Part shown: one piece after another, positions 30,246-49,516 of the stretch | Numbering within the stretch: position 1 is the stretch's first letter | How the letters are laid out: each line of letters opens with the position of its first letter | NCBI RefSeq assembly: GCF_003971255.1 | Contig: NZ_CP034660.1 | Location: 2,356,001 to 2,420,000 of the forward strand | Length of the DNA: 64,000 bases | Source: Colwellia sp. Arc7-635 | GTDB taxonomy: Bacteria; Pseudomonadota; Gammaproteobacteria; Enterobacterales; Alteromonadaceae | Direction of reading: 5' to 3' | Translations under genes and position numbers: made by a program | Notes under the pieces: generated by a model | Database searches by the model: none | Told to the model about the DNA's origin: nothing | What the model saw: the letters and a program-made list of their open reading frames with translations, nothing else

Positions 30246-30265
30246 CGAACCTTCCCTAGTCGTAC

Positions 30266-30358
30266 CAACGCCACATTAAGCGGCAAAAAATTGTTGGCTA
30301 AAATGTTGAACGAAGTGAAAACAGCCAACTGTTTTTTGTCCGTTTGAATGCCTTATAG
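30266..30358 (-). repeat. attC site
   Basis: Edges caacgcc and ccttatag, palindrome gttggcta...agccaac, centre gttgaacgaagtgaa. Confidence 0.88.
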
Positions 30359-31166: not shown

Positions 31167-31258
31167 TAACGCCCTGTTAAGGGGCAAAAAATTGTTTGCC
31201 CAAATGTTGAGGAACGAAACAGCAAACTGTTTTTTGTCCTGCTTGAACAGCTTGTTAT
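31167..31258 (-). repeat. attC site
   Basis: Edges taacgcc and cttgttat, palindrome gtttgcc...agcaaac, centre gttgaggaacg. Confidence 0.88.
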
Positions 31259-31593
31259 GTAGCTACACACGTGACTTTATCAAAAACAGTTGCCTTAATA
31301 AGATCACATTTTTGAATACCATTTTCAATTTTTATTGCGTCACCACAACTGGTATTGCGAACAATAGGCTTACCATTATTGGGCTCAACAATTAATTTTT
31401 TAGTACCACAAAGTTCATTAGCTTTTTTATACCAGCTATCAAGTAACTCATTACCAATATCAGTTTGGCCTTTTGCCGTCACCAGAAAGACAGTACCACT
31501 TTTATTGGCACTTATTGTGAATTCAACATCTTCATTTGAGAAACAACTCAAACTAAAGAAATACATGATTAAGAATACAAAGCTTGATTTCAT
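31255..31593 (-). CDS. cassette-encoded secreted protein
   Basis: 112 residues with a signal peptide (hydrophobic 5-17, cleavage near Cys-Phe-Ser-Asn). Five Cys residues in the mature part suggest disulfides. Its stop codon is the TAA in the attC edge. Its upstream side is cut off from the rest of the array by the IS element inserted 17 bases before the start codon, so array read-through transcription is probably blocked. Confidence 0.55.
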   Translation of the reverse strand: MKSSFVFLIMYFFSLSCFSNEDVEFTISANKSGTVFLVTAKGQTDIGNELLDSWYKKANELCGTKKLIVEPNNGKPIVRNTSCGDAIKIENGIQKCDLIKATVFDKVTCVAT

Positions 31594-31626
31594 ATTGCTA
31601 CATAGACATAATGACTCCCCACGAGG

Positions 31627-31704
31627 TGCTAGCCTCCAAATTCGTGGGTTAGTAAAACCAGAGCCATAATTAGTGTGTTAAACAACTAAAACTGGAGGCT
31701 AGCA
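31627..31704 (+). promoter_or_regulatory. hairpin sequestering the transposase ribosome binding site
   Basis: tgctagcctcca (31627-31638) is perfectly complementary to tggaggctagca (31693-31704), which contains the GGAGG ribosome binding site and the first base of the start codon. A transcript entering from outside the element would fold and hide the start. Confidence 0.6.
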
Positions 31705-32858
31705 TGAGTAAACATAACATAGTTTTTATTGGATTAGATACCCATAAAGTATCGACTGAAGTTGCACATATTGAAGACCAACGTGGCGCAAAAACGGTTC
31801 ATCAAGGAAAAATTAAAACAACTAAAGCCGCAATCACTAAACTTGCTAGCCAATATCAATCTAAATATCCCAATGCGACATTGCATTTTGTTTATGAAGC
31901 AGGCCCCTGTGGCTATTGGATTTATCGACTACTGACGAGCTTAGGTCATTGCTGCTATGTCGTTGCGCCTTCGCTTATCCCTAAAAAGCCAGGGGATAAA
32001 GTAAAAACAGATAAACGTGATGCGATGAAACTGGCTAAGTTGCTTAAATCTGAAGACTTAACGCCTATTTATGTCCCTGAGCCTGAAGATGAAGCTATTC
32101 GTGACTTGTCCCGAGCACGCGAAACTGCCATGAAAGATTTAAAGGATGCTAAATACCAACTTAAAGGTCTGTTTTTACGTAATAACATTAGCACCAAGGT
32201 AAAAGATAACTGGTCAAATCAACATTTACGTTGGCTAACTGAGTTAGTTTTGCCGCATCCAAGCCAACAAATTGTACTGCAAGAGATGATACAAACCATT
32301 ACCGAACGTATTAAGCGCGTTGAACGATTAGTTAATGAATTAGCACATCAAGCAAAACTATGGCGCTATTATCCAGTTGTTCAAGCATTGCAAGCGATGC
32401 GAGGTATTCGTTTTTTAGTCGCTGTAGGCACTATTGCTGAGTTAGGTGATTTAAGACGCTTTGACCACCCGAGAAAACTCATGGCTTATTTAGGATTAGT
32501 GCCCAAAGAAAACTCAAGTGGCGACAACCGAAAACAAGGTGCAATCACTAAATGTGGTAATGGCCGAGCACGGCGGTTACTCATTGAAGGGGCTCAAACC
32601 TATAAGCACAACGCAAACGTGTCAACCGAGCTACAAAAGCGGCAAGAAACACTGCCTAAGGTCGTTATTGATATTGCTTGGAAAGCCCAATTAAGGCTTT
32701 GCCGACGATACAAGCGCCTCATGCAACGCGGTAAGCATCGTAATATTGTTGTCGCTGCCATTGCCCGTGAAATGCTCGCTTATATCTGGGCGATATCACG
32801 AGAAGTAATATTAGTGCCTGTTGACCCAAGTACACGTATTTCAAGGGTACCCGCATAA
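31704..32858 (+). CDS. IS110/IS1111 family DEDD transposase
   Basis: 384 residues. The N-terminal RuvC-like domain has Asp in FIGLDTHK, Glu in YEAGPCGYW and the Asp pair in KTDKRDAMKLAKLL. The C-terminal transposase_20 domain has the MRGIRFLVAVGTIAELGD helix-hairpin-helix part and the YLGLVPKENSSGDNRKQGAI segment with the catalytic Ser region. It appears intact and full length. It reads against the cassettes. Confidence 0.93.
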   Translation: MSKHNIVFIGLDTHKVSTEVAHIEDQRGAKTVHQGKIKTTKAAITKLASQYQSKYPNATLHFVYEAGPCGYWIYRLLTSLGHCCYVVAPSLIPKKPGDKVKTDKRDAMKLAKLLKSEDLTPIYVPEPEDEAIRDLSRARETAMKDLKDAKYQLKGLFLRNNISTKVKDNWSNQHLRWLTELVLPHPSQQIVLQEMIQTITERIKRVERLVNELAHQAKLWRYYPVVQALQAMRGIRFLVAVGTIAELGDLRRFDHPRKLMAYLGLVPKENSSGDNRKQGAITKCGNGRARRLLIEGAQTYKHNANVSTELQKRQETLPKVVIDIAWKAQLRLCRRYKRLMQRGKHRNIVVAAIAREMLAYIWAISREVILVPVDPSTRISRVPA

Positions 32859-33204
32859 TCAAAAAGTGAGTGGTAAAAAATCAACAACATGAAAAAGAGC
32901 AAAGATTAAATGAGAAAAAGTTTTGAGTTAGCGCATGGAGTCAAGCATCGGGTGTGGCACAACCACCGAGGGCGTTAGGATGGCAATAGCCTAGCGGCTA
33001 TTGAACCACGAGCATAGACTGAAATTAGGTGTCACGACGGAACAAGTAAGGTAGGCACTGTTAACCAATAAGTTAATAATCCACGAATATCAGCATGATA
33101 ACCGACGAAATTACTTGCTTCATTCTATGTGTTAACTCACTCAACTTGAAAAGAGAAAAAATTATGGCTCGAAAAAAAGCAGGATATTTTACGGTTTAAC
33201 TTGA
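32859..33204 (+). ncRNA. candidate bridge RNA (seekRNA) of the IS1111 element
   Basis: In the IS1111 group the RNA that guides target choice is encoded downstream of the transposase gene. This 346-base segment has no gene and contains gggcgttagg at 32970-32979, which equals the coding-strand attC core (array sites read gggcgtta or gaggcgtta), plus ggagtca at 32937-32943, which equals the element's own right end. These look like target and donor guides. Boundaries of the RNA are not determined. Confidence 0.6.
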
Positions 33205-33219
33205 CGTGGGGAGTCATAC

Positions 33220-33314
33220 CAACGCCTCATTAAGAGGAAATTTATAGTTGGCTAAAATGTTGAACGCAGTGAAAACAGCCAACTGTAAATTTTCCTGCTT
33301 TAATGACTTGTTAT
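33220..33314 (-). repeat. attC site bearing the IS insertion
   Basis: Edges caacgcc and cttgttat, palindrome gttggcta...agccaac. The insertion sequence lies directly at its R' edge, separating it from the preceding cassette. Confidence 0.9.
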
Positions 33315-33706
33315 ATACCTTTACCACCAAACCCCTTTATTGATTTATATAGCCTATGCCCTGAAAGTAAAACTAAAATAAGTATTACTACCCAAAAACC
33401 AATAGGATCTTCGGTGAGGTTATAATTTCCCATTTTTGCAGCATTACCAATAGAGCCTTTTGATATCCCTGATATTGCCAGAAATGCAAAAACTAAAGAT
33501 AGAAATAGATTACCCCATGCCCATTGAATAGTTTCTGATTCTTTCTTTGTCATTTTTTTGGACGATTTTTTAAAGCCACCATTTTGTATACGAATAGCAA
33601 TTTGTTCTTCGATAATTTTGACACGCTCAGGATAAGCATTTTCATCAATGTTCTCTCTGCAATCCCTCAACTCTGATAGGGTATATTTAGTGTAATCTAC
33701 GTCCAT
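33311..33706 (-). CDS. cassette-encoded membrane protein
   Basis: 131 residues. The N-terminal 60 residues are charged and helical (SELRDCRENIDENAYPERVKIIEEQI, then a Lys/Ser-rich stretch), followed by two membrane segments (about 66-84 and 101-117) and a short basic tail. The stop codon lies in the attC edge. No family is recognised. Confidence 0.55.
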   Translation of the reverse strand: MDVDYTKYTLSELRDCRENIDENAYPERVKIIEEQIAIRIQNGGFKKSSKKMTKKESETIQWAWGNLFLSLVFAFLAISGISKGSIGNAAKMGNYNLTEDPIGFWVVILILVLLSGHRLYKSIKGFGGKGI

Positions 33707-33721
33707 GCTTACCTAGGTATA

Positions 33722-33815
33722 TAACGCCCGCTTAAGCGGAAAAATATAGCTGGCTAAAATGTTGAACGGAGTGAAAACAGCCAGCTGTATTTTTTCCGTT
33801 TGAAGCGCTTGTTAT
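33722..33815 (-). repeat. attC site, duplicate of 36922-37015
   Basis: Edges taacgcc and cttgttat, palindrome agctggcta...agccagct. By eye it is identical in sequence to the site at 36922, apart from the final base. Confidence 0.92.
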
Positions 33816-33820
33816 GAATA

Positions 33821-34249
33821 CTACCCTCGCAATTGCGACGTTATAGAAGCTTTAATTGATTGCTCATAATCACCAACTAGATCAAGACAAACTTCTTTTG
33901 TACAATAAGAAACAAACTTTTGAGGATTGCCTTTCGAGTCCATTGCTGATATCTCATAAAGTGTATATGACTTAAATTGACTTTCATTAACAATAACATC
34001 GGTTGAGCTTCGTTTAAAGTCGGCGACTAAATCTAAATCATTTAAGCGAAAATCCATGAAATATTTTCCACCTTCTGAATTCTTGCAAGTATAGAGAACC
34101 GAAGCCTTTTCTTCTAGCAAGTTTGCTTTCGCTTCGCAGTCTATAGATAAAACTAATTTATCAGGAAGTATTTTTACAACAACTCCTTTTTCTGACTTTG
34201 CAGAGGAGTTAAAAGTAATAAGTATTAATATTATGCCTAAAATTTTCAT
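33821..34249 (-). CDS. cassette-encoded secreted protein
   Basis: 142 residues with a signal peptide (hydrophobic 4-14, cleavage near Ser-Ala-Lys-Ser). The mature protein is a beta-strand-rich domain with four Cys in two pairs (near 38 and 55, and near 115 and 120). No family is recognised. Confidence 0.55.
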   Translation of the reverse strand: MKILGIILILITFNSSAKSEKGVVVKILPDKLVLSIDCEAKANLLEEKASVLYTCKNSEGGKYFMDFRLNDLDLVADFKRSSTDVIVNESQFKSYTLYEISAMDSKGNPQKFVSYCTKEVCLDLVGDYEQSIKASITSQLRG

Positions 34250-34269
34250 GGAACCATCCTTTGTATTTA

Positions 34270-34364
34270 TAACGCCCCACTAAGAGGCAAATAATAGTTG
34301 GTTATAATAGAGAGCGAAGCGAACAAAACCAACTGTTATTTGTCCTGCTTGAGTGGCTTGTTAT
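34270..34364 (-). repeat. attC site, near-duplicate of 35614-35708
   Basis: Edges taacgcc and cttgttat, palindrome gttggtta...aaccaac, centre gagagcgaagcgaac. It differs from 35614-35708 at about one base by eye. Confidence 0.92.
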
Positions 34365-34765
34365 GTGCCTTTTTTATGCACCACTTTTGGAATTTCTAGA
34401 TCGAATGTTTCAATGAGAGACCTTGATACTTTAATTGTTAAAATATCTGGGTACTTTTCATTACAACACTTTGGTGCATCCTTTGAATTACGGCTAATAG
34501 AATCAAAAGAGACACCACATAAATGAGAAATAACATCCCCGTTTTTTAATTTATATTTATTTAGGATATTTGAAGGTTTTAAATCTCTTAGTTTCCAACC
34601 AATTGTTTTAAAACCAGTTTTATTTGAGTGCCTGTAAGGTGATACCTGACCAGAAAACAAATAATTATATTCTTTAAGTGCATCCATAGGTGTATAGCAC
34701 TCTTTTGTTTCTCCGTAACTGAAAGTACAGAAAACTGATAAAGACAATAACAGTAGATATTTCAC
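34361..34765 (-). CDS. cassette-encoded secreted protein with PDZ/GspC-like core
   Basis: 134 residues with a signal peptide (hydrophobic 4-17). The segment GWKLRDLKPSNILNKYKLKNG followed by DVISHLCGVSFDSI and a later LTIKVSR strand resembles the 'kyGLknGDvi..inG' core of PDZ and type II secretion GspC domains. That assignment is a suggestion only. Four Cys are present. The stop is supplied by the attC edge. Confidence 0.5.
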   Translation of the reverse strand: MKYLLLLSLSVFCTFSYGETKECYTPMDALKEYNYLFSGQVSPYRHSNKTGFKTIGWKLRDLKPSNILNKYKLKNGDVISHLCGVSFDSISRNSKDAPKCCNEKYPDILTIKVSRSLIETFDLEIPKVVHKKGT

Positions 34766-34783
34766 GGCACCTCCAATGGCACA

Positions 34784-34875
34784 TAACGCTTTGCTAAGCG
34801 GCTAAAAATAGTTGGCTATAATTTGCGAGGAACGAGCACAGCCAACTGTTTGTGTCCGTTTAAGCAACTTGTTAG
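34784..34875 (-). repeat. attC site
   Basis: Edges taacgct and cttgttag, palindrome gttggcta...agccaac, centre tgcgaggaacgagc. Confidence 0.88.
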
Positions 34876-34877
34876 GG

Positions 34878-35597
34878 CTAAATTTTCACAAACCTACGAG
34901 GTACACTTTTTACTTTTATTACCTGCTCCCAACACTCACTCAATTCTGTTTTGGTGATAAAAGCACTCAAACTAAGTGATTGAGATAACTGAATGATTAA
35001 GTCAGAAATGCCTGCGTAATATGCGGATAAAGTCTGAGGCAAAACCATCATTCGCGAACTTGTAATAGTATCGTATACAAGCATCTCACCGCGCCCTAGA
35101 GAATAGCTATCACATAGTGCAGCATATTTTCTATGAGTGAATGATGAAAGTGATTGATAATACTTGGTTCTCTCCGCCTTTGCCTCCTCACCATCAGTTT
35201 TTAACAGATGATCTCTAGATACGCTATGAGGTATGAATTCGTTATTGAACCATTTAGCTAATTTATTCTCAGCCTTAGTTGTCCCTGAACGAAAAAAAGT
35301 TAATAAGTCGATACTTTCAATAACGTCTCTAAACAGCCTTGCCGTAATTCTATGTTTTTTACATTCAAGGTTAACTAGGGCTTCAATTAGGGAGTCTACA
35401 GCGTCTGTTAATAGCATCCACTCTGCTTTTTCCAAGCTTGTATCAGATTTTTTGTAGTGCATGTTTTTCTTCATCAGAATTTCAAAAAACTTTTCAAGAA
35501 GAGAACTTGCCTCTAAAGCAAACTGCTCATTGGCTTCCCATTCATATGGATTCTTAAATGCTTCTTGAGGATTTCTACCCCAGATAAAACTCGCCAT
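34878..35597 (-). CDS. cassette-encoded HEPN-like protein
   Basis: 239 residues, all helical, no signal peptide. The pattern RLFRDVIESIDLLTFF, KWFNNEFIPHSVSRD, then YYQSLSSFTHRKYAALCDSYS resembles DUF5677/HEPN-like proteins, where a Ser-x-Phe-x-His segment sits in the last core helices. It is the second longest cassette gene. HEPN proteins are often RNases or partners in toxin and defence systems; a function here is inference. The start ATG follows a gatcc stretch with a weak binding site. Confidence 0.5.
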   Translation of the reverse strand: MASFIWGRNPQEAFKNPYEWEANEQFALEASSLLEKFFEILMKKNMHYKKSDTSLEKAEWMLLTDAVDSLIEALVNLECKKHRITARLFRDVIESIDLLTFFRSGTTKAENKLAKWFNNEFIPHSVSRDHLLKTDGEEAKAERTKYYQSLSSFTHRKYAALCDSYSLGRGEMLVYDTITSSRMMVLPQTLSAYYAGISDLIIQLSQSLSLSAFITKTELSECWEQVIKVKSVPRRFVKI

Positions 35598-35613
35598 GCT
35601 GATCCTTTAGCCC

Positions 35614-35708
35614 TAACGCCCCACTAAGAGGCAAATGATAGTTGGTTATAATAGAGAGCGAAGCGAACAAAACCAACTGTTATTTGTCCTGCTTGAGTGG
35701 CTTGTTAT
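35614..35708 (-). repeat. attC site, near-duplicate of 34270-34364
   Basis: Same edges, palindrome and centre as 34270-34364, differing at about one base. The two flank the HEPN-like and PDZ-like cassettes. Confidence 0.92.
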
Positions 35709-35714
35709 ATTGCC

Positions 35715-36149
35715 TTACTCACCGAACAGACTTTCAAGATTATTTAATGGCGTTTCATCAACAACAACTTTTGATTTAGAATCTTCTCTTAAGCCCCTTA
35801 TAGCTGAAATGACAACTAAAACACGCTTCTTTTTAGACAAAAAGAATTCTTGATTCTCTTGCAAAGTGGCTGCAAAAGCAATCTGTTCTAATTCCATGTT
35901 AGTTTTTTTATCAATAAGGGTTAAGGCTGAAAGTTGATCTTCATCGTTTGAATCTAAAGTAGACCTGATAAGGTTAATCATTTCCAAGTTACTAAGTTGC
36001 TCTTCAAGAGTAACTCTGGTTTTGAAGATTGAATCAAAAGCTCCTGAAGTGAGCATTTCTTGAATTTGTGTTTTAGGAATGCATTCATCATTTGCATTAA
36101 CAAACGATGAAAAAAGTAAAATTATAATAAAGGCTTTAATATTTCTCAT
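35715..36149 (-). CDS. cassette-encoded secreted protein
   Basis: About 144 residues from the ATG at 36149, chosen because aagga lies five bases upstream and the longer frame (to 36176) starts inside the attC. It has a signal peptide (KAFIIILLFSSFVNAND), then a helical, charged mature part with a SKKKRVLVVISAIRGL helix. No family is recognised. Confidence 0.55.
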   Translation of the reverse strand: MRNIKAFIIILLFSSFVNANDECIPKTQIQEMLTSGAFDSIFKTRVTLEEQLSNLEMINLIRSTLDSNDEDQLSALTLIDKKTNMELEQIAFAATLQENQEFFLSKKKRVLVVISAIRGLREDSKSKVVVDETPLNNLESLFGE

Positions 36150-36166
36150 GAGCATCCTTGGCAATA

Positions 36167-36264
36167 TAACGCCCAAATAACAGGCTAAGTAATGGTTGGC
36201 TAAAATTGTGTAGCGAAGCGAAACGTAGCCAACTGTTACGTGTCCTTGTTTATTTTCTTGTTAG
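36167..36264 (-). repeat. attC site
   Basis: Edges taacgcc and cttgttag, palindrome gttggcta...agccaac, centre gtgtagcgaagcgaaac. Confidence 0.88.
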
Positions 36265-36518
36265 GTGTTTTTTACTGGCGGCCAAGGCCTTAGCTGATTT
36301 ACAACTTGAGACTCGATAGACCAATCCGCTGGCTTTACTTTTGAGTTAAACCAAATGCAACCAGCACTTACCCAATTATCAAAAAATTGAATATTGTCAT
36401 CGTATCCAAATTCACAACCACAACAATTACATATATCGTATGAGCAGCGTAACTCCGAGACTGAATCATAACTTTCATCAGACTTAAACCCACAAACTGG
36501 GCAATGATTTATTGGCAT
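36261..36518 (-). CDS. cassette-encoded CPCC-like zinc-ribbon protein
   Basis: About 85 residues from the ATG at 36518; the frame extends to 36542, but those codons are attC sequence. It has knuckles CPVCGF and CNCCGCEFGYDD with a third Cys before them, like the cysteine-rich CPCC family of small proteins. The C-terminal part is Trp/Pro-rich. The stop lies in the attC edge. Function unknown. Confidence 0.6.
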   Translation of the reverse strand: MPINHCPVCGFKSDESYDSVSELRCSYDICNCCGCEFGYDDNIQFFDNWVSAGCIWFNSKVKPADWSIESQVVNQLRPWPPVKNT

Positions 36519-36532
36519 GCTGACGAAACACC

Positions 36533-36627
36533 TAACGCCCACTTAAGCGGACAAAAATTGTTGGTTAAAATGTGAAGCGAAGCGGAACCTAACCAACTGT
36601 TTTTGTTCCGTTTGAAGTGCTTGTTAT
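36533..36627 (-). repeat. attC site
   Basis: Edges taacgcc and cttgttat, palindrome gttggtta...aaccaac, centre gtgaagcgaagcggaac, the same centre as at 39046. Confidence 0.9.
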
Positions 36628-36920
36628 ATGCCCATTAACGCTGGCCATATTTGATAAATAAAAAAACAATAGCCTACCATTAACAAAGAGGTTAAAACTA
36701 AAAACAAAGTATCTGTAGGGTGAAAGCGACTAACCCTACAGTCTGATATAGCTTTGATTAATAAATAAGGTGATGCAATTATTAGGAGTACATTTATGAT
36801 TCCTAATAGAGCAAGCAATGGCTCCCAAATTACAGAGGAACTATGCAATAGATGCCACGAAAAAGGAAGAATAACGCTTAGTAAAATCAACCAACGATAG
36901 TGCATGAATCCTCTGGGCAT
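36624..36920 (-). CDS. cassette-encoded small membrane protein
   Basis: 98 residues with three membrane segments (about 9-26, 31-56 and 70-92) and a short charged loop. The start may be the second Met (residue 6), since the first codons come from the attC flank. The stop lies in the attC edge. No family is recognised. Confidence 0.5.
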   Translation of the reverse strand: MPRGFMHYRWLILLSVILPFSWHLLHSSSVIWEPLLALLGIINVLLIIASPYLLIKAISDCRVSRFHPTDTLFLVLTSLLMVGYCFFIYQIWPALMGI

Positions 36921-36921
36921 A

Positions 36922-37015
36922 TAACGCCCGCTTAAGCGGAAAAATATAGCTGGCTAAAATGTTGAACGGAGTGAAAACAGCCAGCTGTATTTTTTCCGTT
37001 TGAAGCGCTTGTTAG
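36922..37015 (-). repeat. attC site, duplicate of 33722-33815
   Basis: By eye the same sequence as 33722-33815 apart from the last base (cttgttag here). It follows the three-segment membrane-protein cassette. Confidence 0.92.
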
Positions 37016-37157
37016 TTGCTTGGTTATTAAAAGCACTAATTTTACAACAAGTTACCATATTTAAGGGATAGTAGGAAGAACCAATAAATGCTTCCGCAAT
37101 AAACACCTAAACGTAAAATTTGAGCCTTAACAATAAAAGCTATTTAACCTGTAAACT

Positions 37158-37286
37158 ATGCAAGGCGAAAACTGGGGTGGGCAAAAAAGAAGTGAATACT
37201 TAAAGGCACTTCCATTGCCAAACCAAAGATTGAACCAAGTACAAAAGATTAAGATAAGCGCTGAACTAGCAAATAAATTTAGATAA
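37158..37286 (+). CDS. possible small protein in reverse orientation within a cassette
   Basis: The cassette at 37016-37301 has no gene on the usual minus strand. On the plus strand a 42-residue frame (MQGENWGGQKRSEYLKALPL at its start, ending KFR) is present, basic and soluble. There is no good ribosome binding site. It may be a truncated gene inserted backwards, an antisense gene, or chance. Confidence 0.3.
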   Translation: MQGENWGGQKRSEYLKALPLPNQRLNQVQKIKISAELANKFR

Positions 37287-37301
37287 TTTACTGCGGACAA
37301 C

Positions 37302-37397
37302 TAACGCCCTGTTAACAGGCAATAAAATAGTTGGCTAAAGTTAGCGACGAAGGAGAAAAAGCCAACTGTTTTTTGTCCTTGTTTAACAGCTTGTTAG
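37302..37397 (-). repeat. attC site
   Basis: Edges taacgcc and cttgttag, palindrome gttggcta...agccaac, centre gcgacgaaggag. Confidence 0.9.
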
Positions 37398-37401
37398 CCA
37401 T

Positions 37402-37875
37402 TTATGCCTTCAAACAATTAGTAACCTTATTACTTTTAATGTTCTTGGTAGTTAATCTACTTTGATTTGACTCAACAATTATGGATTCAGCGGTTTTCGT
37501 TGTTGAATTCACGGATTTAATAATATCTTTCATCACCTTGATATCAGGCATTTTTTCATAATCAGAGATAGAGACAAGCCTTTCCTCTAATAATACTTCT
37601 GTAAGTATGCTTCCTTCGCTTTTCCACGTGCCTAACAAATCAAGGGTAAACCAAATATTATTTTCTTGGCCTTTAAGTTTCCATGCCTCTGTTTGTATCG
37701 CTTCACCATCAGATTTATATTCTATGGAAAGATCCACAACAAATATTACGTCTTTAGTAATAATATCTTCAAAAGGCTCACATACCCATTTTCCATGTAT
37801 TGCATTAGGTTTATCTGCTGCACATATGTTAGTTGAAAAGACAAGAATAAAAACAATTAAGGAGCACAGTTTCAT
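37402..37875 (-). CDS. cassette-encoded secreted protein
   Basis: 157 residues with a signal peptide (hydrophobic 4-18, cleavage after Ile-Cys-Ala-Ala). The mature part begins with an AIHGKWVCEP segment and continues as alternating strands (VVDLSIEYKSDGEAI, WKLKGQENNIWFTL), a lipocalin-like layout. Two Cys may pair. Function unknown. Confidence 0.55.
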   Translation of the reverse strand: MKLCSLIVFILVFSTNICAADKPNAIHGKWVCEPFEDIITKDVIFVVDLSIEYKSDGEAIQTEAWKLKGQENNIWFTLDLLGTWKSEGSILTEVLLEERLVSISDYEKMPDIKVMKDIIKSVNSTTKTAESIIVESNQSRLTTKNIKSNKVTNCLKA

Positions 37876-37892
37876 ATGATTCTCTAAATGGC

Positions 37893-37986
37893 TAACGCCT
37901 CACTAAGAGGCAAATAATAGTTGGTTAAAATAAGCGACGAAGGAGCAAAAACCAACTGTTATTTGTCCTTTTGAGTGACTTGTTAG
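37893..37986 (-). repeat. attC site
   Basis: Edges taacgcc and cttgttag, palindrome gttggtta...aaccaac, centre gcgacgaaggagc. Confidence 0.9.
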
Positions 37987-39029
37987 CCATCATTTTCCCA
38001 GTCGTATTCATCATCTTCATCTTCATACCCAATTGCTTTTTTGATTGCTTCATATTCATTCTTATCAAAAAACGAATCAATTATTTCATCACCAACTAAA
38101 ACCCAATTGATATTATTATTAGCTAATAATAGTTGCCAGTCATGAATAATTAGCCAATCTCTTGTATGCCCCCAAATATTAGAAAGGTACTTTCTGTCTT
38201 TACAAACTTGAGCATAATTTTGTGGAATAATTCTGTTTAATTCTGATGCTTTCTTAATACCTACAGAGTTTATTTCACTAATTAATTCTTTTATATCTGC
38301 CTTATGTACTACAGGTTCTAATTCTAATTCGTTTGTTTTAAACCAATTCTCGATAAATTGAGGAAGTGTGATTGAATCCAGATCATAATCAAGGTTACCT
38401 TGAGTAGTGTCGGCATGTACTTTCTCTATGTATGCATCAATTTCGCTGGATATTTCACTAAACCCTTTATCAGCAATTTCTAACATGCCTGCATAGAGGA
38501 AAAGTTTTCTCTCTATTTCTGGAGGTAACTTCCCAGTAAATTTATAATTGCTATCATGAGCCAATTCAGCCCAAGCATGTTGCAATACTGTGCGCACTTG
38601 GATTTCAAATTTTAAATTTGAAAGGTTAGCAAACTCAGGAAGGCATGCTCTTGCTTGGCCTATATCACAAACAAAGTGAACTGACCTATAACCAATTTGA
38701 TCAACAGACAATTTTTCATCTTGGTTTAATGAGTTAGCGAGATCAACGTTAAATGCACTATTGATTAAATCAGATATTTTATTAATGTCTGATTCAAAAT
38801 AGGCAACAATACGAATTCCCGACAAGTCAGTGAGTTGCTTTGCTGGGTCTTTATAAGATTTTCTTTCAATTTTTTCTAAAACACTTTCCTTAGTTTTAGA
38901 ACGACCTGAAACAGTTAAATATTCAATCTCATTTGTTTTAAGCAAGTTTTCAATTATAGAAATAATTGTATCTTTCAATCTTGCGTGTCTAGGTAGTATT
39001 TCATCTACCCATGCTTCATATTTACTCAT
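37983..39029 (-). CDS. cassette-encoded RelA/SpoT-type (p)ppGpp synthetase domain protein
   Basis: 348 residues, the longest cassette gene. The synthetase motifs are intact: GRSKTKES at 42-49, the DLSGIRIV segment at 68-75, GYRSVHFVC near 113-121, and FEIQVRTVLQHAWAELAHDS with Glu142, followed by YK. There is no hydrolase domain and no TGS/ACT region of long RelA. The C-terminal 150 residues are acidic, unrecognised and end in an Asp/Glu-rich tail. It is likely an alarmone synthetase; toxic small alarmone synthetases and CapRel-type phage-defence proteins use the same core. The stop lies in the attC edge. Confidence 0.8.
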   Translation of the reverse strand: MSKYEAWVDEILPRHARLKDTIISIIENLLKTNEIEYLTVSGRSKTKESVLEKIERKSYKDPAKQLTDLSGIRIVAYFESDINKISDLINSAFNVDLANSLNQDEKLSVDQIGYRSVHFVCDIGQARACLPEFANLSNLKFEIQVRTVLQHAWAELAHDSNYKFTGKLPPEIERKLFLYAGMLEIADKGFSEISSEIDAYIEKVHADTTQGNLDYDLDSITLPQFIENWFKTNELELEPVVHKADIKELISEINSVGIKKASELNRIIPQNYAQVCKDRKYLSNIWGHTRDWLIIHDWQLLLANNNINWVLVGDEIIDSFFDKNEYEAIKKAIGYEDEDDEYDWENDG

Positions 39030-39045
39030 ACCTTTCCATGATGGC

Positions 39046-39141
39046 TAACGCCCCATTAAGAGGCTTTTAATTGTTGGTTAAAATGTGAAGCGAAGCGGAA
39101 CCTAACCAACTGTTAAAAGTCCTGCTTGAATGGCTTGTTAT
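39046..39141 (-). repeat. attC site
   Basis: Edges taacgcc and cttgttat, palindrome gttggtta...aaccaac, centre gtgaagcgaagcggaac. Confidence 0.9.
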
Positions 39142-39497
39142 ATTTTTTTAGCAACCAATTCTATTTTATACATTTCTTCTGGCTCTCTACCAACGACAAT
39201 ATATGCAGTTTCATTTAGCGTAGTGCTAACATTCGCTATTTTGTATTTATTGAATACACCGTTTTCGAACCTATTTAACTTAGCCGAAAAACTAACCTTA
39301 CTAGAATCTATCTCTGGCGTGATTTTAATTTCCAATAGTTCATTAGCAGTTATAGTGCTCTGAAGACCCGTTTCAGTTCGTATAACCTCAGACTTTACTA
39401 GTTTATTATTAAAATAAAATTTAACGTCCACCTCAAGTGATTCCGCATTTACAAAAAACGATGCTACCGAAAGAAGTGCTATCCCTAATTTTTTCAT
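39138..39497 (-). CDS. cassette-encoded secreted protein
   Basis: 119 residues with a signal peptide (KKLGIALLSVASFFVNAE). The mature part is short beta-strands without Cys (VDVKFYFNNKLVKSEVI, YIVVGREPEEMYKIELVAKK), similar in shape to small pilus or secretin-accessory domains, but no family is certain. The stop lies in the attC edge. Confidence 0.55.
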   Translation of the reverse strand: MKKLGIALLSVASFFVNAESLEVDVKFYFNNKLVKSEVIRTETGLQSTITANELLEIKITPEIDSSKVSFSAKLNRFENGVFNKYKIANVSTTLNETAYIVVGREPEEMYKIELVAKKI

Positions 39498-39516
39498 CTG
39501 ACTATCCTTAAAAATA

Positions 39517-39610
39517 TAACGCCACGTTAAGCGGCAAAAAATTGTTGGCTAAAATGTTGAACGGAGTGAAAACAGCCAACTGTTTTTTGTCCGTTTGAAC
39601 GCCTTGTTAG
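39517..39610 (-). repeat. attC site
   Basis: Edges taacgcc and cttgttag, palindrome gttggcta...agccaac, centre gttgaacggagtgaa. Confidence 0.92.
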
Positions 39611-39622
39611 TTTCGGTTACAC

Positions 39623-39901
39623 CTAGCTATTTGATTTACCTAGATTAAGCTCTATGTTATCGGGCTTAATTGAAACATTTGGCAATTCTACTTCATCTAG
39701 GTGTTTGTGGTAGCCATCTACATCGCAATTCGCAACCTCAATTAGTTTTGAAGCTAATGCTAACAATCCGCCTTTGTCACCAGAAAGGTAAACAGTATTG
39801 TTATTAACATCTAGTTCAATGCAACCACAATGTTCTTTTTCGCTAAACGGTATACCGTTTTTATTAATAACAAATTTGTGGGCAAACTCTACTTCTTTCA
39901 T
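39623..39901 (-). CDS. cassette-encoded Imm32-like immunity protein
   Basis: 92 residues, soluble. The strand-helix pattern VYLSGDKGGLLALASKLIEVAN followed by YHKHLDEVELPN resembles the Imm32 family (early 'i.G...gL..La..l..la' then a His-x-His-Leu-Asp motif), predicted immunity proteins of polymorphic toxin systems. No toxin gene is adjacent. The assignment rests on this motif only. Confidence 0.5.
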   Translation of the reverse strand: MKEVEFAHKFVINKNGIPFSEKEHCGCIELDVNNNTVYLSGDKGGLLALASKLIEVANCDVDGYHKHLDEVELPNVSIKPDNIELNLGKSNS

Positions 39902-39909
39902 TAGAAACC

Positions 39910-40002
39910 TAACGCCCTAATAATGGGCAAAAAATTGTTGGCTAAAATGTTGAGGAACGAAAACAGCCAACTGTTTTTTGTCCTTATTTATTAGCTTGTT
40001 AT
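39910..40002 (-). repeat. attC site (first of the array)
   Basis: Edges taacgcc and cttgttat, palindrome gttggcta...agccaac, centre gttgaggaacg. It belongs to the most promoter-proximal cassette. Confidence 0.92.
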
Positions 40003-40015
40003 GTGTACTTTACAC

Positions 40016-40195
40016 CTAGCTAATCCAATGGCCTATTAATATTAACGCTATAATAGAATACAAAAATATCAGCCTTACCGAGTTAAACCTAAACAAGAAT
40101 TCATAGCCACAAACAGGACATAACCTTCTGGTGTATTGAGGTGATACGTATTCTTGCTTCGGTGAAACATTGCTTTCACATTTTGGGCACTTCAA
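40016..40195 (-). CDS. cassette-encoded zinc-ribbon membrane microprotein
   Basis: 59 residues starting at TTG. It begins MKCPKCESN, has a second knuckle RLCPVCGYEF, so a four-Cys zinc ribbon, then a single membrane segment (LIFLYSIIALILIGHW) that ends the protein. It lies in the first cassette, between attC 39910-40002 and the repeat at 40263. The ribosome binding site (aaagag) is weak. Confidence 0.55.
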   Translation of the reverse strand: MKCPKCESNVSPKQEYVSPQYTRRLCPVCGYEFLFRFNSVRLIFLYSIIALILIGHWIS

Positions 40196-40262
40196 TTGGT
40201 TTCACTCTTTAATTATTAAACTCGAAATAGGTTAAGAGCTTAATTTATCCTGTACACATAAC

Positions 40263-40590
40263 AGCTTATTATGGAGACTTCTCAGTAATGTCCGTCCCAT
40301 AAATATTATTTAATTGACATTAATATCCCATAATTTCATAGCTTTAGGAAATATAAACTTTGTATTTTTGTCAGAACATGGGTATTACTGAGACTTCTCA
40401 GTAATACCCAATATAAGATTTATCATTATTACCTATAATATCAATAAATTAGAAGTTAAGCAGAATATTTTCTGTTTGTTACTAAGACTTCTCAGTAATA
40501 AGACACGAATAATTCATTAGAAAATATATCGCAAAAAACTTATCTCTAACGTCAGCAATGCGCACAAAGTTAGCATTAATAATTTGATGA
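40263..40590. repeat. array-flanking direct repeat, right copy, with internal palindromes
   Basis: Diverged copy of 27129-27365. It starts at taac next to the first cassette, in the position where attI and its promoter normally lie. It carries gacttctcagtaat three times (near 40277, 40393 and 40486); the middle copy forms the palindrome attactgaga-ct-tctcagtaat. These could be recombinase-binding sites or operators. Confidence 0.55.
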
Positions 40591-40752
40591 TGAACGACCG
40601 CTTTGGTGGCTTTGTTGACTATCAAGATGAAGGTAGCTCAACGTCTAATGAATACTAAAATCAGCTCAAAAATCTATTGATGCTAACGTCCGCTATCGTA
40701 TCAAAGCGGTCTATCTTCCTCTAATTTCCAAACCACACCTACCTGAGCTACC

Positions 40753-40836
40753 AAACAATAAAGTTTCAATCTTTATTGTCACTACTTAGTGACATCACAG
40801 AGCATGGGGTTTTATAAAGTTTAAACTTTATTGTTT
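40753..40836. terminator. nested inverted repeats after pdxY
   Basis: aaacaataaagttt (40753-40766) and aaactttattgttt (40823-40836) are perfect inverted repeats enclosing a second one (gtcacta-ct-tagtgac). It lies about 100 bases past the pdxY stop and may end the leftward polyamine operon. Confidence 0.45.
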
Positions 40837-40931
40837 CCTTACTCTTTTGGCATGACCGATAAATAGGCCATGCAAGAGAAAAAATTCTAATCTCTATTGT
40901 TCTCCCACATTAATTTTACTATTGATCAGTG

Positions 40932-41795
40932 TTAATAAGAGACAATCTTACTTGCGAAATACTCGATTTTCCCATCAGAAATGTAATCTTGCGCCGCTAT
41001 AATTTGCAGCTCTCTTTCGGCTAATGCTTTTGTTTTACTGACAATGTCATAAACACTTTGATTGGTTTTTTCAAAAGCTTCAATCGGGCTTTTTGTTTTC
41101 AATAGGTTGCCGGTGAACAACGATGTCGTTAAATCACCCACACCAATAACGGGTATCGAAAAGTCAATTAAAGGACGCTCTATCAAATAGACTCCTTCCT
41201 CGGTCGCCATCAGCATGCTGTAGTTGGATAAGGATTTATAATGCAGATGTTTAACTAAGACAATACTCGGGCCCATAGCGCATGCTTTATCACAAGCCGC
41301 TATAGCACTGTCTAAATCATTAATTGCTATTCCTGTAATTTGAGATAACTCAAATTGGTTCGGGGTGATCACTTGGGCTGCAGGAATTAGATACTTACAG
41401 AGCATTTCTGCAACGTCGTCAGTAACGAAACAGCCTTTATTTTCGTCTCCCATTACAGGGTCACAAACATACAAATAATCGGGATTAACGGTTTTTATAC
41501 GCTGAATATTGTCCAATATTTCTGATGCTTGATTAGCACCACCTAAATAGCCAGAAATAACCGCTGAAATATTAGGAAATACGTTAATATTCTCTAAGCC
41601 GTTAAACAATGAGGTGATTTCGCCTTGCGCAAGCACAGTACCGGTCCAGCCTTGCTTATACTGAGTATGATTAGAAAATTGCACCGTATTGATAGGCCAA
41701 ACATTAAAGCCGAGTCGTTGTAACGGAAAAACCGCCGCTGAATTGCCGGCACAACCATAAACCACATGGGATTGAATCGAGATAATACCACGCAT
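40932..41795 (-). CDS. pdxY: pyridoxal kinase
   Basis: 287 residues, the same length as E. coli PdxY. The ribokinase-fold motifs are present: the opening IQSHVVYGCAGNSAAVFPLQRLGF, VCDPVMGDENKG, and the phosphate-loop/catalytic GVGDLTTSLFTG (catalytic Asp in GVGD). It phosphorylates pyridoxal to PLP. It is 140 bases downstream of nhaD, at the end of a unit that encodes two PLP-dependent decarboxylases, so a cofactor-supply role for them is a reasonable inference. It has an aagga ribosome binding site. Confidence 0.92.
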   Translation of the reverse strand: MRGIISIQSHVVYGCAGNSAAVFPLQRLGFNVWPINTVQFSNHTQYKQGWTGTVLAQGEITSLFNGLENINVFPNISAVISGYLGGANQASEILDNIQRIKTVNPDYLYVCDPVMGDENKGCFVTDDVAEMLCKYLIPAAQVITPNQFELSQITGIAINDLDSAIAACDKACAMGPSIVLVKHLHYKSLSNYSMLMATEEGVYLIERPLIDFSIPVIGVGDLTTSLFTGNLLKTKSPIEAFEKTNQSVYDIVSKTKALAERELQIIAAQDYISDGKIEYFASKIVSY

Positions 41796-41935
41796 AATAG
41801 CGTCCTTATTTATTGATTATTCATTAAAATAGTTATATTTATTAGTATTTAACTATTTTAAAAGCTAAAAACTAGAAATTCTCGTTAGAGCGTACGTTCA
41901 TACAACCGGTACAAAGCATCCCACCAACCAACACT

Positions 41936-43356
41936 CTAGCCGTTCAAGATTAAGTGAGTGTAAATACCGGCTGCATAACCGACGGCAATGACTGGCGTCC
42001 ACCGTAAATGACTCATAAAGGTGTACTGCCCTTTTGCGCTCCCCATTAAAGCAACGCCGGCAGCCGAGCCTACTGATAGCAAGCTACCTCCTACGCCACA
42101 GGTAAGAGTTATTAATAACCACTGATTTACATCCATTTGTGGTTGCATACTCAATACAGAAAACATCACCGGAATGTTGTCTATGACTGCTGAGATTGCG
42201 CCCAATGCTACATTGGTTTGAGTAGCCCCCCACGTGCCATACATGTAATCAGACGCTAAGCTCATATAGCCAATAAATGTTAAAGCGCCAACACTAAACA
42301 TGACCCAAAGAAAAATAATAAAGTGTCCCATTCTGCAGAACGAACGTCTTCAAAAATATCATACTTAGGCTCGCCATCAACGCGAGTTCGTCTCAGGTGA
42401 TATGTTAAGAACATTAATAGAGACATTCCCATCATCATGCCCATAAAAGGGGGTAAACCTAAAAATTGTTCAAACGTTATTGCCATCGTAATACTCAAAA
42501 GGCCCAAAAAAATAGTTCGCTTACCGCCTCGGGCCATTGCTGTATGCTCTTTCATTGGCATTGGCACACCACTTGGCACAAAAAAGCTCATTATCAAACA
42601 AGGGATCAAATAGGTAACCAATGCAGGGATAAAGAGTGAAAAAAATTGACTAAATTCAACCTGACCTGATTGCCAGACCATTAACGTTGTTATATCGCCA
42701 AATGGACTAAATGCACCGCCAGCATTAGTTCCGCAGACAATATTCACCATAGTTACACTAACAAATGTCGGTTTATGAACACCAATGGCCAGTACAACAC
42801 TGCCCATCACCAATGCTGTGGTTAAATTATCAGCAATCGGTGAAAGAAAAAACGTGATCAGTCCGGTAACCCAAAATAATTGACCGTAACTCAGCCCAAG
42901 GCTGACTAACCAAGATCGCATGCTTGCAAATACGTTTGTCTTATTAAGCACGCTAATGTAGGTCATAGCACACAGGAGAAAAAGCAATAGACTGGAGTAT
43001 TCATCTAAGCCGTGATTTATAGCTTTGTGAAGTTGCTCTTTATTCACGCCATATTGTGGTGCGGCATAAGCAATGACTAACCAAATAATGCCCGCGCCTA
43101 ACATGACAGGTTTAGATTTACGTAACTGGGTTTTTTCCTCTGAGATCACTAACACATAAGATAATAAAAAAACCACTAAGCAAAATATCCCTTTAGGATC
43201 AGTTGCAAGTTCAGCAAGTAAATGTGCTCTTGGTTCAATGGCAAGAGCACCGAAAGATATCGTAACTAGCATAATGCATAAAGCGGTAACGACCGATAAT
43301 CGCAGCCAAGGTAATTCGTTCATTTTACTGTCGGCGTTCATCGGTCGTTTTTGCAT
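41936..43356 (-). pseudogene. nhaD: NhaD-type Na+/H+ antiporter, frameshifted
   Basis: Two overlapping frames together give about 475 residues, the normal NhaD length. The first (from 43356) runs to WDTLLFFFG and then goes out of frame; the second carries on as VMFSVGALTFIGYM to 41936. One missing C in the ccc at 42304-42306 (a G in the coding strand) explains it. Ten or more membrane segments and the conserved GAFSPFGDITTLMVW motif of the antiporter are present. The gene would exchange sodium for protons. It is either broken or misread by sequencing. Confidence 0.85.
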
Positions 43357-43373
43357 TAATCATTCTCACTGAC

Positions 43374-44846
43374 TTAGAACGAATAAGAAATATTCGCTAT
43401 GATATGGTTATCAGCCTGCCCGTCGGTATTATCAAGCTTAGCCGCCGAACTGGTTTGTGTTACAGCAAGTCCAAGGTTAAATTTCCCCATGTCATATGCC
43501 AAACCAGCTCCCCACCAATTGTAAGAATGGCCAAAGTTAGAACGGTCATAATGCCCAACTTCCATATTCAGAGACAACTTTTCAATTAACTCATAATCAG
43601 CCGTCCCCTGATACCAAGTACCTTTTTCGCCACTGGCAACTTGATCATTTGAATAACCAATTTTTGCGCCAAAATGACCATAGCTTGCGCCTAAAATAAA
43701 TTCACCGTAATCAAAGTCATTTTCTAGAGCGTCTTCAATACCAGGGTAATCATAATAGACATAACTGGCGTCTAAACTTAAGCCTTCAAATAACTCAAAG
43801 CTGTATCCTAAGTACAAATCAACTTCAAAGTCAGCGCCGTCTTCTTCCTGTCCACGCGGTACGTAATCAACATTGGAAACCCAAACTCCGGTGTAAACAC
43901 CATTATTCCAGCCATAATCGACGGACAATTGTACCGCAGGGTTATCTTCAGTCTGACTAACACCTTTGCTGACGTAGTTAGAGACAATATCTACACTCGA
44001 GCTAAAGCCCTTATACCCATCCCAACGCTGCCATTCCTTGCGCTCAAATACATCTGAACGTGAGCTGAAACTCAAAACAAAACCCGGATCCGTCACTTTC
44101 GTTAAATCTAGCCCATTCATTTCGCCGAGTGAATCAAAGAGTTTATCTCCACGTTGACTGGTGTCATGGTACATAAGCGAAATAGCAAAGGGGCCAAAAC
44201 GTTTGCTTACTCCCACAGAATGATAACTGTAGCTATCACCTAAAAGCTTGTCAGCATCATGAAAGCCAAACATACCGTCTATGGTATAACCAAGCCCAAT
44301 CGGATAATGCCCCGTTAATTCATAGGCAACACTGTCTTCTTTGAGGGTGTACCTGTCATGTCCATAATCAATTCTGAAACGAAAAAGTTCAGCATAAAGC
44401 AGTTCTGCATATACCTCCTCGTAACTTGAACTTTCAGCGGTAGATCCTGGAAAGTTAAGATAATGGCCACTGACTCTGGCTTGCCAATTATCATCAAGCT
44501 GCCATTCATAACCAATAAAACCACGAAGCGAGACAGATAAATCACGGTCAGCTAAGCCATTGGCAACAAAATCAATCGTTTTTGCGCGAAAGCCTCCCCC
44601 CCAACCTGATGGATCACGATAAATCATCGCCGCTTGCACGCCAGGATCACCTAAGGTGCGACTAAAACCATGCTCAATATCATCGCTTGAAAGCGTACCA
44701 TAAATGCTCCAACGCTCATCTTCTTTACTATCAGCATCAGCAACGTCTTTAGCTTGAATCGATGTCGCCAGCGTAAGACCTAGGAGTGCAATAAGCGTTG
44801 GTGAAAGTTTAAACCGAACATCATTTTTTAAGCACGGATACCGCAT
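43374..44846 (-). CDS. TorF-type putative porin with duplicated domain
   Basis: 490 residues with a signal peptide (LSPTLIALLGLTLATSIQAK). Two similar beta-barrel units follow, about 45-245 and 270-490. Each begins with a W/S-I-Y/V segment leading to a surface-exposed strand of the form 'S.Y.s.G.Sq', and the protein ends in Tyr-Ser-Phe, the outer-membrane C-terminal signature. The second unit (VSNYVSKGVSQTEDNPAVQL) matches the roughly 220-residue TorF/gcw_chp family best, so this looks like a tandem fusion. Its start overlaps the end of ldcA by 26 bases, with aaggagg before the ATG, so translation is probably coupled. Confidence 0.72.
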   Translation of the reverse strand: MRYPCLKNDVRFKLSPTLIALLGLTLATSIQAKDVADADSKEDERWSIYGTLSSDDIEHGFSRTLGDPGVQAAMIYRDPSGWGGGFRAKTIDFVANGLADRDLSVSLRGFIGYEWQLDDNWQARVSGHYLNFPGSTAESSSYEEVYAELLYAELFRFRIDYGHDRYTLKEDSVAYELTGHYPIGLGYTIDGMFGFHDADKLLGDSYSYHSVGVSKRFGPFAISLMYHDTSQRGDKLFDSLGEMNGLDLTKVTDPGFVLSFSSRSDVFERKEWQRWDGYKGFSSSVDIVSNYVSKGVSQTEDNPAVQLSVDYGWNNGVYTGVWVSNVDYVPRGQEEDGADFEVDLYLGYSFELFEGLSLDASYVYYDYPGIEDALENDFDYGEFILGASYGHFGAKIGYSNDQVASGEKGTWYQGTADYELIEKLSLNMEVGHYDRSNFGHSYNWWGAGLAYDMGKFNLGLAVTQTSSAAKLDNTDGQADNHIIANISYSF

Positions 44847-47082: not shown

Positions 47083-47096
47083 TGTTAATTCCTTAT

Positions 47097-48020
47097 TTAT
47101 TCAGGGAGAGCAGCACGTGTAAAAAGGCCTCGTGCTGTCGCGTCAATTTCACCAAAATAGGTCGTGTAAATAGCGTCTATTTCACCTGTGCGATAAAGTC
47201 TACTCAGTGTTCTATCTACGAGTAATCTAAAATCTTCGTCATCACGAGCCAACGTTAGCGCAATGACTTTATTTGAAAAATATCTGTGGATAACCTGCAA
47301 CTCGCTACTGGCAGTGTTGCGTTTTACCGCTTCAAGTAAAATAGCTCGGTCACCAAAAAGCATGTCAGAACTGCCTTTAAGCACAGAGTTAACACCAAGT
47401 TCATAATCTTTAACCGCTGATACTTTTGCGATAATGCCAAATTCATGTATACGATCGTTAACCCAGGTTTCAGTCGTTGTACCCAATAACACCGAGGCTG
47501 TTCGTTGTTTTAAAATCTGGCTGTATGAACCTCTCCAACGCGGTCTAAATTCAGGTTCTTCGCCAGCAAGTAACGCACGTAATTGTGATGGTGCATCGAC
47601 ACGAGTAAGCACACCAATACCACTTAGAAAAATAGGAATAGAAAAGGAAACATCACGGCGTCTGGCAATCGTTTCAGTTGTGGCTCCGCACAGCAAATCA
47701 ATCTTACCGCTTTGTAACGCAGTGAATCGGTCCTCAGTACTTACCGCTACTTCATCAATCGCTAATTTGCTCAAACCTAGCTCTGACTTCACTTCTTCTG
47801 CTATTTTTTTACATAAAGCAACGGCGTAACCTGCCGCATGGCCGGTATCGTCACGATAAGAAAAAGGGACATCATCAGTACGAAAGCCTATATTTAATGT
47901 GCCGGAATTTTGAACTCTTTCTAAAGTTTGAGCATGGACTGTCGGCTCAACCGCGAGTAAAAATAAGGCACAGGTTAAAAAAGTCGCCTTTTGTAATAAT
48001 GGCTGGTTTAAAATCCTCAT
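47097..48020 (-). CDS. periplasmic amino-acid-binding protein (family 3)
   Basis: 307 residues with a signal peptide ending at Val-His-Ala-Gln. The family 3 solute-binding signature is visible: GTLNIGFRTDDVPFSYRDDTGHAAGYAVALCKKI, then KIDLLCGATTETIARRRDVSFS. It is related to glutamate/aspartate and basic amino-acid binding proteins. No ABC permease or ATPase follows, so it may serve a transporter elsewhere, or act as an amino-acid sensor for the decarboxylase operon. It overlaps the end of potE by four bases. Confidence 0.8.
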   Translation of the reverse strand: MRILNQPLLQKATFLTCALFLLAVEPTVHAQTLERVQNSGTLNIGFRTDDVPFSYRDDTGHAAGYAVALCKKIAEEVKSELGLSKLAIDEVAVSTEDRFTALQSGKIDLLCGATTETIARRRDVSFSIPIFLSGIGVLTRVDAPSQLRALLAGEEPEFRPRWRGSYSQILKQRTASVLLGTTTETWVNDRIHEFGIIAKVSAVKDYELGVNSVLKGSSDMLFGDRAILLEAVKRNTASSELQVIHRYFSNKVIALTLARDDEDFRLLVDRTLSRLYRTGEIDAIYTTYFGEIDATARGLFTRAALPE

Positions 48021-49369: not shown

Positions 49370-49516
49370 AATATCTTCCCATCTGATTTTAGTGCTGAGT
49401 GCTGTTGATAGTTAACAGCACTCGGCTTTAGTCTTTGTGTCACAAATACTGTTTTAAGTGACGCGCTCATTATTTAGAAATAAATTATTTAGAACTAACC
49501 TAATTGAGAAACAACA

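Follow-up and report, generated by a model that had tools for sequence, protein, structure and literature searches.

The closest described systems are the IS1111-attC elements ISKpn4, ISPst6 and ISPa25, and a seekRNA has been shown for ISKpn4 and ISPst6 (PMC11187229). The seekRNA of IS1111 elements has two short target matches, of which the complement of the top strand comes first, and these matches overlap in the target (PMC11187229). For ISEc11, an 82-nt seekRNA was sufficient for movement and was more efficient than the long form, and insertion was retargeted by changing the guide together with the donor flanks (PMC11187229). The bridge RNA of IS621 and the IS110 family has two domains, and in IS621 the two strands of its target loop have the core in common, each pairing with a different DNA strand (PMC11208160, PMC11208158). 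Target and donor of IS621 share the dinucleotide CT, of which the first base is less conserved than the almost invariant second base (PMC11208158).

The window, a stretch of 64,000 nucleotides from the genome of Colwellia sp. Arc7-635 (4.74 Mb, single contig), contains an element that resembles all of these systems. Like the IS1111-attC elements, from which it is set apart by their descriptions, it lies at one end of an attC and has a downstream noncoding region. It shares the order and the overlap of the two target matches with the seekRNAs, and the two-domain RNA, the transposase superfamily and the pairing of the target strands with opposite DNA strands around a common core with the bridge RNA systems. 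Sequence comparisons indicate that this insertion sequence of the IS110/IS1111 superfamily is very probably RNA-guided, with a guide set to attC sites. As both IS1111-attC elements and guides of the seekRNA or bridge RNA type have been published (PMC11187229, PMC11208160), the kind of system is known, as the original prediction had noted.

The element, its copies and its joints

The element and its neighbours occupy the following positions in the window:

31605–33221, + strand: whole insertion sequence including its own right-hand CA, 1617 bp; homologous empty sites put the CA inside
31605–33219, + strand: insertion sequence by the usual 7-bp/3-bp convention, with eight identical 1615-bp copies in the genome
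31605–31611, + strand: 7-bp left extension GACATAA (from sequence and relatives)
31612–31623, + strand: left subterminal inverted repeat tgactccccacg (from sequence; relatives have similar repeats in a like place)
31704–32858, + strand: tnp, encoding a 384-aa DEDD transposase (PF01548, 1e-16; PF02371, 2e-19)
33201–33206, + strand: −35-like TTGACG, which would face a −10-like CATAAT (31607–31612) at 17 bp if the ends join over CA (spacing counted by hand)
33205–33216, − strand: right subterminal inverted repeat, cgtggggagtca on the + strand (from sequence and relatives)
33217–33221, + strand: right extension TAC, then the element-borne core CA at 33220–33221 (from flank counts and empty sites)
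33222–33316, − strand: attC of the neighbouring cassette (ORF 33311–33706, − strand); attC-model hit G000:C1:2389221–2389316, which is 33221–33316 of the window
31255–31604, − strand: cassette whose start is cut off from the upstream attC by the insertion (ORF 31255–31593)

The transposase matched NF033542, described as IS110 family RNA-guided transposase, with 263 bits, and carries GLVPKENSSG in its C-terminal domain, which is the IS1111-type motif GL-P----SG. The 12-bp subterminal inverted repeats are within the range of ~11–13 bp of the IS1111 family, and the distribution of noncoding DNA, with ~360 bp downstream of tnp versus 99 bp upstream, is also IS1111-like. These features agree with the original assignment to the IS1111 group. 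In contrast, the 384-aa transposase is longer than the 330–350 aa of that family, is 25% identical to IS4321, and falls in a quick FastTree outside the single group (support 0.96) of 30 IS1111-type sequences, which had been gathered by likeness to IS4321. The close relatives of the element formed one group in the quick tree (support 0.996; L073 left out and L095 included), with L095 as its sister. In an earlier FastTree that contained L073 with its broken frame, this sequence had a long branch and the close clade was not monophyletic; L129, which bears a stop, was read with X.

A whole-genome comparison yielded eight copies of the element that are identical over 1615 bases. All eight full-length copies have their right end against an attC edge, in one orientation, and lie between eight different attC and eight different cassettes. 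Since the attC and cassettes differ, these copies represent separate insertions. The genome also contains a ~177-base left-end remnant of a related element (L009, G000:C1:3391241–3391416; 83%), with an attC cluster a few kb away.

For six of the eight insertions, the R'' of the interrupted cassette was found within 1400 bp. For the cassette interrupted in the window, for example, the R'' is ACATAAC, and the complement of this R'' is matched by GTTATGTAGC at the cassette start. The form of the empty site deduced in this way was confirmed by homologous empty copies found, among the sequences compared, for six insertions (L013, L040, L068, L124, L003 and L008), all of the form ..YA|AC... As these sites are without an extra CA, the CA at the right joint must have been brought by the element. 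The original prediction of caacgcc at 33220 against an attC was confirmed, with the attC on the minus strand; the extent of the element is corrected to 31605–33221, as the CA at 33220–33221 belongs to the element. The A at 33221 doubles as the final letter of this attC edge.

The two joints differed consistently across the element and its relatives. At the left joint the target YA is kept, as TA in 89 and as CA in one of the 90 readable sites; the lone CA is at L068, whose empty paralogue also has CA. The right flank starts with CA in 91 of 92 sites, the exception being the distant L136, for which the end was misplaced in the parse. Hence, where the IS1111 family has terminal extensions of 7 bp and 3 bp and no target duplication, the Colwellia element has 7 bp on the left and, on the right, 3 bp plus an element-borne CA, which can be described as 5 bp or as 3 bp with a core dinucleotide. 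If the ends were joined with this CA, they would form a promoter-like TTGACG–17 bp–CATAAT. Elsewhere in the window (30250–30272, − strand), a nearby attC runs on as GGCGTTGGTACGACTAGG, like the right joint of the element, GGCGTTGGTATGACTCC; this is possibly a decayed scar, or chance. An Rfam search of the whole window at gathering thresholds gave no matches.

The predicted guide RNA region and the choice of sites

Four features were located in the noncoding region downstream of tnp:

32952–33119, + strand: predicted two-domain guide RNA region (from covariation over 30 pairs)
32971–32977, + strand: target guide 1, GGCGTTA, which complements the target top strand TAACGCC (attC edge and core TA)
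33013–33016, + strand: target guide 2, CATA, which complements the bottom strand of the target (core TA and the beginning of the following cassette)
33087–33093, + strand: candidate donor guide ATATCAG, which matches, with one wobble, the predicted circle junction ATAC-CA-G

The window copy and its relatives gave 99 parsed rows, corresponding to 92 distinct element–site pairs and 69 distinct noncoding regions. The RNA alignment comprised 61 of these 69 regions; L025, L028, L037, L044, L067, L082 and L083 were left out because of large RNA insertions, and L136 because it is distant. In this alignment, 93.7% of the cells of the 30-pair structure were paired, and 24 of the 30 pairs showed double changes, including 11 of the 16 pairs in the second domain (helices 5–7). 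The structure was compared with 500 shuffles by five measures, and no shuffle equalled it in any of them. When the partners were shifted by 1–3 columns the covariation signal was lost, in a control that favoured the structure as it was partly derived from the same 61 rows. Folded singly, the RNA region did not surpass its shuffles (z = −0.44; 54 of 200 were equally good), so that the case for an RNA structure rests on covariation.

The first domain has an internal loop, with GGCGTTA on its 5' strand and CATA followed by GAC (33013–33019) on its 3' strand. These two guides complement different strands of the target ..CATAACGCC.. and have TA in common. GTTA of guide 1 was invariant (61 of 61 RNAs), the preceding G, G and C were present in 59, 58 and 56, and TA of guide 2 was present in 60 of the 61 aligned RNAs. 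In the candidate donor guide, C replaces the second T in 33 of the 61 rows (ATAYCAG), and CA was found in all 61. Some relatives carry insertions in the RNA. Similar ~45-base insertions, starting with GCCTACATGGATGTAGG, lie inside guide 1 after GGCGTT in L025, L067 and L082, which come from three different genera. In L028, L037, L044 and L083, the second domain has a palindrome-rich insertion of ~65 bases beside the candidate donor guide.

To find further integron sites, an attC covariance model was made from eight attC of the window, among them the one at 33222–33316, and genome hits were taken at E up to 0.01. This yielded at least 96 hits, which is a lower bound because 150 of the 1268 first-look candidates were scored. 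The 96 hits comprised eight attC with the insertion, 85 empty attC ending in GTT and three unusable hits, and formed 22 places when split at gaps >10 kb. One integron integrase exceeded the curated cut-off (TIGR02249, 448 bits; C1:2853155–2854102) and lies beside one of these 22 places, whereas three further matches were far under the cut-off. Hence, most of the scattered cassette clusters have no integrase nearby.

Among the 85 empty attC, 73 end in GGCGTT, and the letters after GTT were AG in 41, AT in 35, AA in three, GG in three and others in three. The insertions used a distinct subset of these sites. GTTATG was found at seven of the eight insertions versus 12 of the 85 empty attC (Fisher, p = 3.7e-5), and GTTAT at all eight versus 35 of the 85 (p = 0.0014), whereas GTTAG was found at none of the eight versus 41 of the 85. 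By these counts, the choice of site within the genome appears to follow the second guide, CATA, which explains it better than GGCGTTA.

These results modify the proposed guide. The original prediction had pointed to gggcgttagg at 32970–32979, which is indeed present, as the attC core used throughout the array and as a candidate guide that would explain the insertion point. GGCGTT is common among the empty attC and GGCGTTA pairs with the attC edge, but AGG follows in only 18 of the 85. Moreover, gggcgttagg would predict insertion at AGG sites, yet the insertions sit at GTTAT; the last GG is therefore probably not read. The idea that a guide sets the attC edge is well supported by the comparison with relatives, although one of its two strands, CATA at 33013–33016, had been missed. 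The motif ggagtca is present at 32937–32943, but its identity with the right end of the element is attributable to chance, as GGAGTC occurs, outside the right end, in one of the 69 noncoding regions, namely this one.

Predicted guides and target sites in relatives

Changes of guide 1 were compared with right flanks in 80 pairs from 64 noncoding regions; L025, L067, L082, L136 and flanks shorter than 7 bases or not starting with CAAC were left out. The three variable letters of guide 1 matched the flank at 219 of 240 positions, compared with a mean of 199 and a maximum of 214 in 20,000 permutations that ignored kinship (p = 5e-5). The common combination of guide GGC with flank GCC made up 61 of the 80 pairs, and five of the 64 noncoding regions departed from GGC. 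Full co-change was seen in L057 (guide 1 GGAAGTTA, flank AACTTCC), L062 (AAAAGTTA, AACTTTT) and L129 (ACTGTTA, AACAGT). An R''-like motif identifies the flanks of L057 and L062 as variants of attC. In contrast, the flank of L129, a relative with 52% transposase identity and one stop in its transposase frame, has neither an R''-like motif nor an attC-model hit; its site is palindromic. Mismatches occurred as well. Guide GGC was found at flanks GCT (six sites), ACC (three), GTC (two) and TTT (one), 12 sites in all, while none of the four sites with guide GGT, at flanks TTC (two), ATG (one) and ACT (one), was fully matched. The expectation that flanks vary with the guide in related copies was thus borne out, with exceptions.

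A similar tendency was found for guide 2. A guide with C had a flank with C at nine of 12 sites, versus 12 of 70 sites for a guide with A (p = 1.4e-4), although L048 alone accounts for five of the nine C–C sites. When each noncoding region was counted once, the numbers were five of eight versus 11 of 55 (p = 0.02). L042, L058 and L064 were misses.

Most targets of the relatives were attC. The R''-like TTGTTR was present in 69 of the 80 distinct right flanks of ≥150 nt, where 7.3 were expected. It was lacking in nine flanks (L020 and L136 set aside), and five of these nine have CAACGCC, which favours reading by the guide. These counts bear on the use of the same guide at sites unrelated to attC, which would have counted against the original prediction. 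L095, with a transposase identity of ~45% and a broken frame, also lies at an attC, and its GGCGTTA and CCTA match the flanks on both sides. As L095 is the sister of the close clade in the tree, attC targeting is older than this clade. The right flanks of L125 and L127 have CAGCGCAC and CAGACGCC in place of CAAC, as rare departures. Seven more distant relatives (L130–L134, L136 and L137; L128, L135 and L141 left out of this comparison) differ in their repeats and are flanked by neither CAAC nor an attC-like sequence.

One relative was found in a clinical setting. It belongs to a class 1 integron of Klebsiella pneumoniae pKP5362-1, a conjugative IncC plasmid, where it lies at L229:1205–2763, with the arr-3 attC on one side, qacEdelta1 on the other and blaNDM-1 nearby. 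Of its transposase residues, 283 of 384 (74%) are identical to those in the window. Its joints are gcatcta|GACATAA on the left and TACCA|ACGCC on the right. Guide 2, ATCTA, equals its own left flank, and guide 1, GGTGTTA (GGT at flank GCC), is one G–U wobble off the right flank. In six other records the uninterrupted arr-3 attC reads ca|ACGCC or ta|ACGCC. None of these six records has qacEdelta1 as its neighbour, and a second arr-3 copy was not found at 31300–50000 of the Klebsiella plasmid; the comparison is thus limited to the attC side. Among 72,556 plasmid records, eight matched this transposase at E up to 1e-120, seven from Pseudoalteromonas, Alteromonas and Vibrio, and one being pKP5362-1 itself. 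A search of 20,395 E. coli records for near-identical copies of this relative found none. A clinical class 1 integron thus carries a relative of a mostly marine lineage.

Several explanations of this pattern can be weighed. The transposase itself might recognise the folded or double-stranded attC, with the match in the noncoding region as a by-product or chance. An attC folds as a hairpin, proteins that read this hairpin exist (IntI), and most sites of the clade have the R''-like motif, as this explanation would predict. However, guides change with flanks in relatives, the L129 site matches its changed guide without an attC motif or model hit, five of the nine motif-less sites still read CAACGCC, and the choice among cassette starts within one genome tracks guide 2; recognition by the transposase is therefore very improbable. 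A further explanation would be that the copies did not transpose to attC but travelled as passengers of cassettes moved by the integron integrase. The genome does encode an integrase above the cut-off, and the GTT of the attC edge is preserved, so that the element and the next cassette might move as one cassette. Yet a passenger would keep its cassette, whereas the eight copies lie between eight different attC and cassettes, and the same joint recurs in relatives of many genera. This leaves passenger spread with an almost negligible probability.

Reading of the target by the guide RNA is compatible with two roles of the second domain. ATAYCAG may read the joined ends of the element as a donor loop. 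The basis of this reading is a match of 7 nt, which in the window copy includes one wobble; comparison of the donor guide with the element ends, which hardly vary, gave no convincing covariation. Alternatively, the first domain alone would guide, as in a seekRNA, and the second would serve processing or stability. The 82-nt seekRNA of ISEc11 sets a precedent for this (PMC11187229), and the donor match is short and involves near-invariant ends. On the other hand, the second domain covaries too, and CA stands at the matching place in all 61 RNAs, in a match that spans the inferred junction including the CA of the right joint. Guidance by the first domain alone is thus a serious candidate, with somewhat less than an even chance. 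We also considered whether base x of the second-domain xAACC tracks the left end GACAxAA. By eye, C–C pairs occur in the Alteromonas group; exceptions are L023 and L068 of Colwellia and several elements with T. The pattern was judged to be confounded by kinship, and this candidate was rejected.

Under the favoured interpretation of an RNA-guided element, the RNA would be transcribed from the promoter created when the ends join in a circle. It would then bind the transposase and pair with both strands of the attC edge, while its second domain may recognise TAC-CA-GAC at the circle junction. Recombination would join the target core TA to the donor core CA, which have the second base A in common. 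With TA in the target loop and CA in the candidate donor loop, the target and donor cores that the RNA encodes appear to differ.

Comparison with known systems

Our results bear on a point on which published accounts differ, namely whether an IS1111-type RNA reads the ends of its own element. In one account a short target-reading RNA is enough (PMC11187229), while in another donor loops are predicted (PMC11208160). The clade described here offers a natural test, with eight copies and 85 empty targets in one genome and relatives with changed guides, and because target and donor cores differ, each of them can be traced at the joints. The clade also suggests how a guide RNA may keep an insertion sequence in the repeated niche between gene cassettes and follow changes of this niche. 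In the available part of a study of Shewanella integrons, no insertion sequences were found that break attC there (PMC9229058).

Among the plasmid matches listed, the nearest named transposases are those of ISSso6-type elements, a likeness by transposase alone (~47% identity), and none is named ISKpn4, ISPst6 or ISPa25. In the literature on IS110, attC and gene cassettes, as far as it was available, we did not find the close clade described, but the original papers on IS1111-attC elements may note it. To the extent of this literature, what appears to be new is guide 2 with its within-genome comparison, the precise joint at which target and donor cores differ, and the way in which guide changes track attC variants. 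One may further propose that attC targeting arose separately outside the IS1111 cluster, together with an RNA with mismatched cores TA and CA, an asymmetric scar and guides retuned to variants of the attC core. We regard this combination as tentative, and rather doubtful than probable; the separate origin is a reading and not a result, as ISKpn4, ISPst6 and ISPa25 are known here by description. If it is true, nearly every insertion crosses a mismatched core, with the target TA on the left and the CA of the element on the right, and the retuning of guides reaches the start sequence of a class 1 integron in a hospital plasmid.

The comparison with IS621 shows where the Colwellia element departs from the bridge RNA systems. 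Its RNA lies downstream of tnp, as is also predicted for IS1111 elements (PMC11208160), the order of the target strands is reversed, and the subterminal repeats are long. In both systems the second core base is nearly invariant, but it is T in IS621 and A in the Colwellia element (PMC11208158). Moreover, IS621 uses CT in both cores, in contrast to the target TA and apparent donor CA of the Colwellia element. If the proposed combination holds, the fixed asymmetry of the joints would imply a strand-transfer overlap of at most one base, or repair that always proceeds along one strand, unlike the two-base core of IS621.
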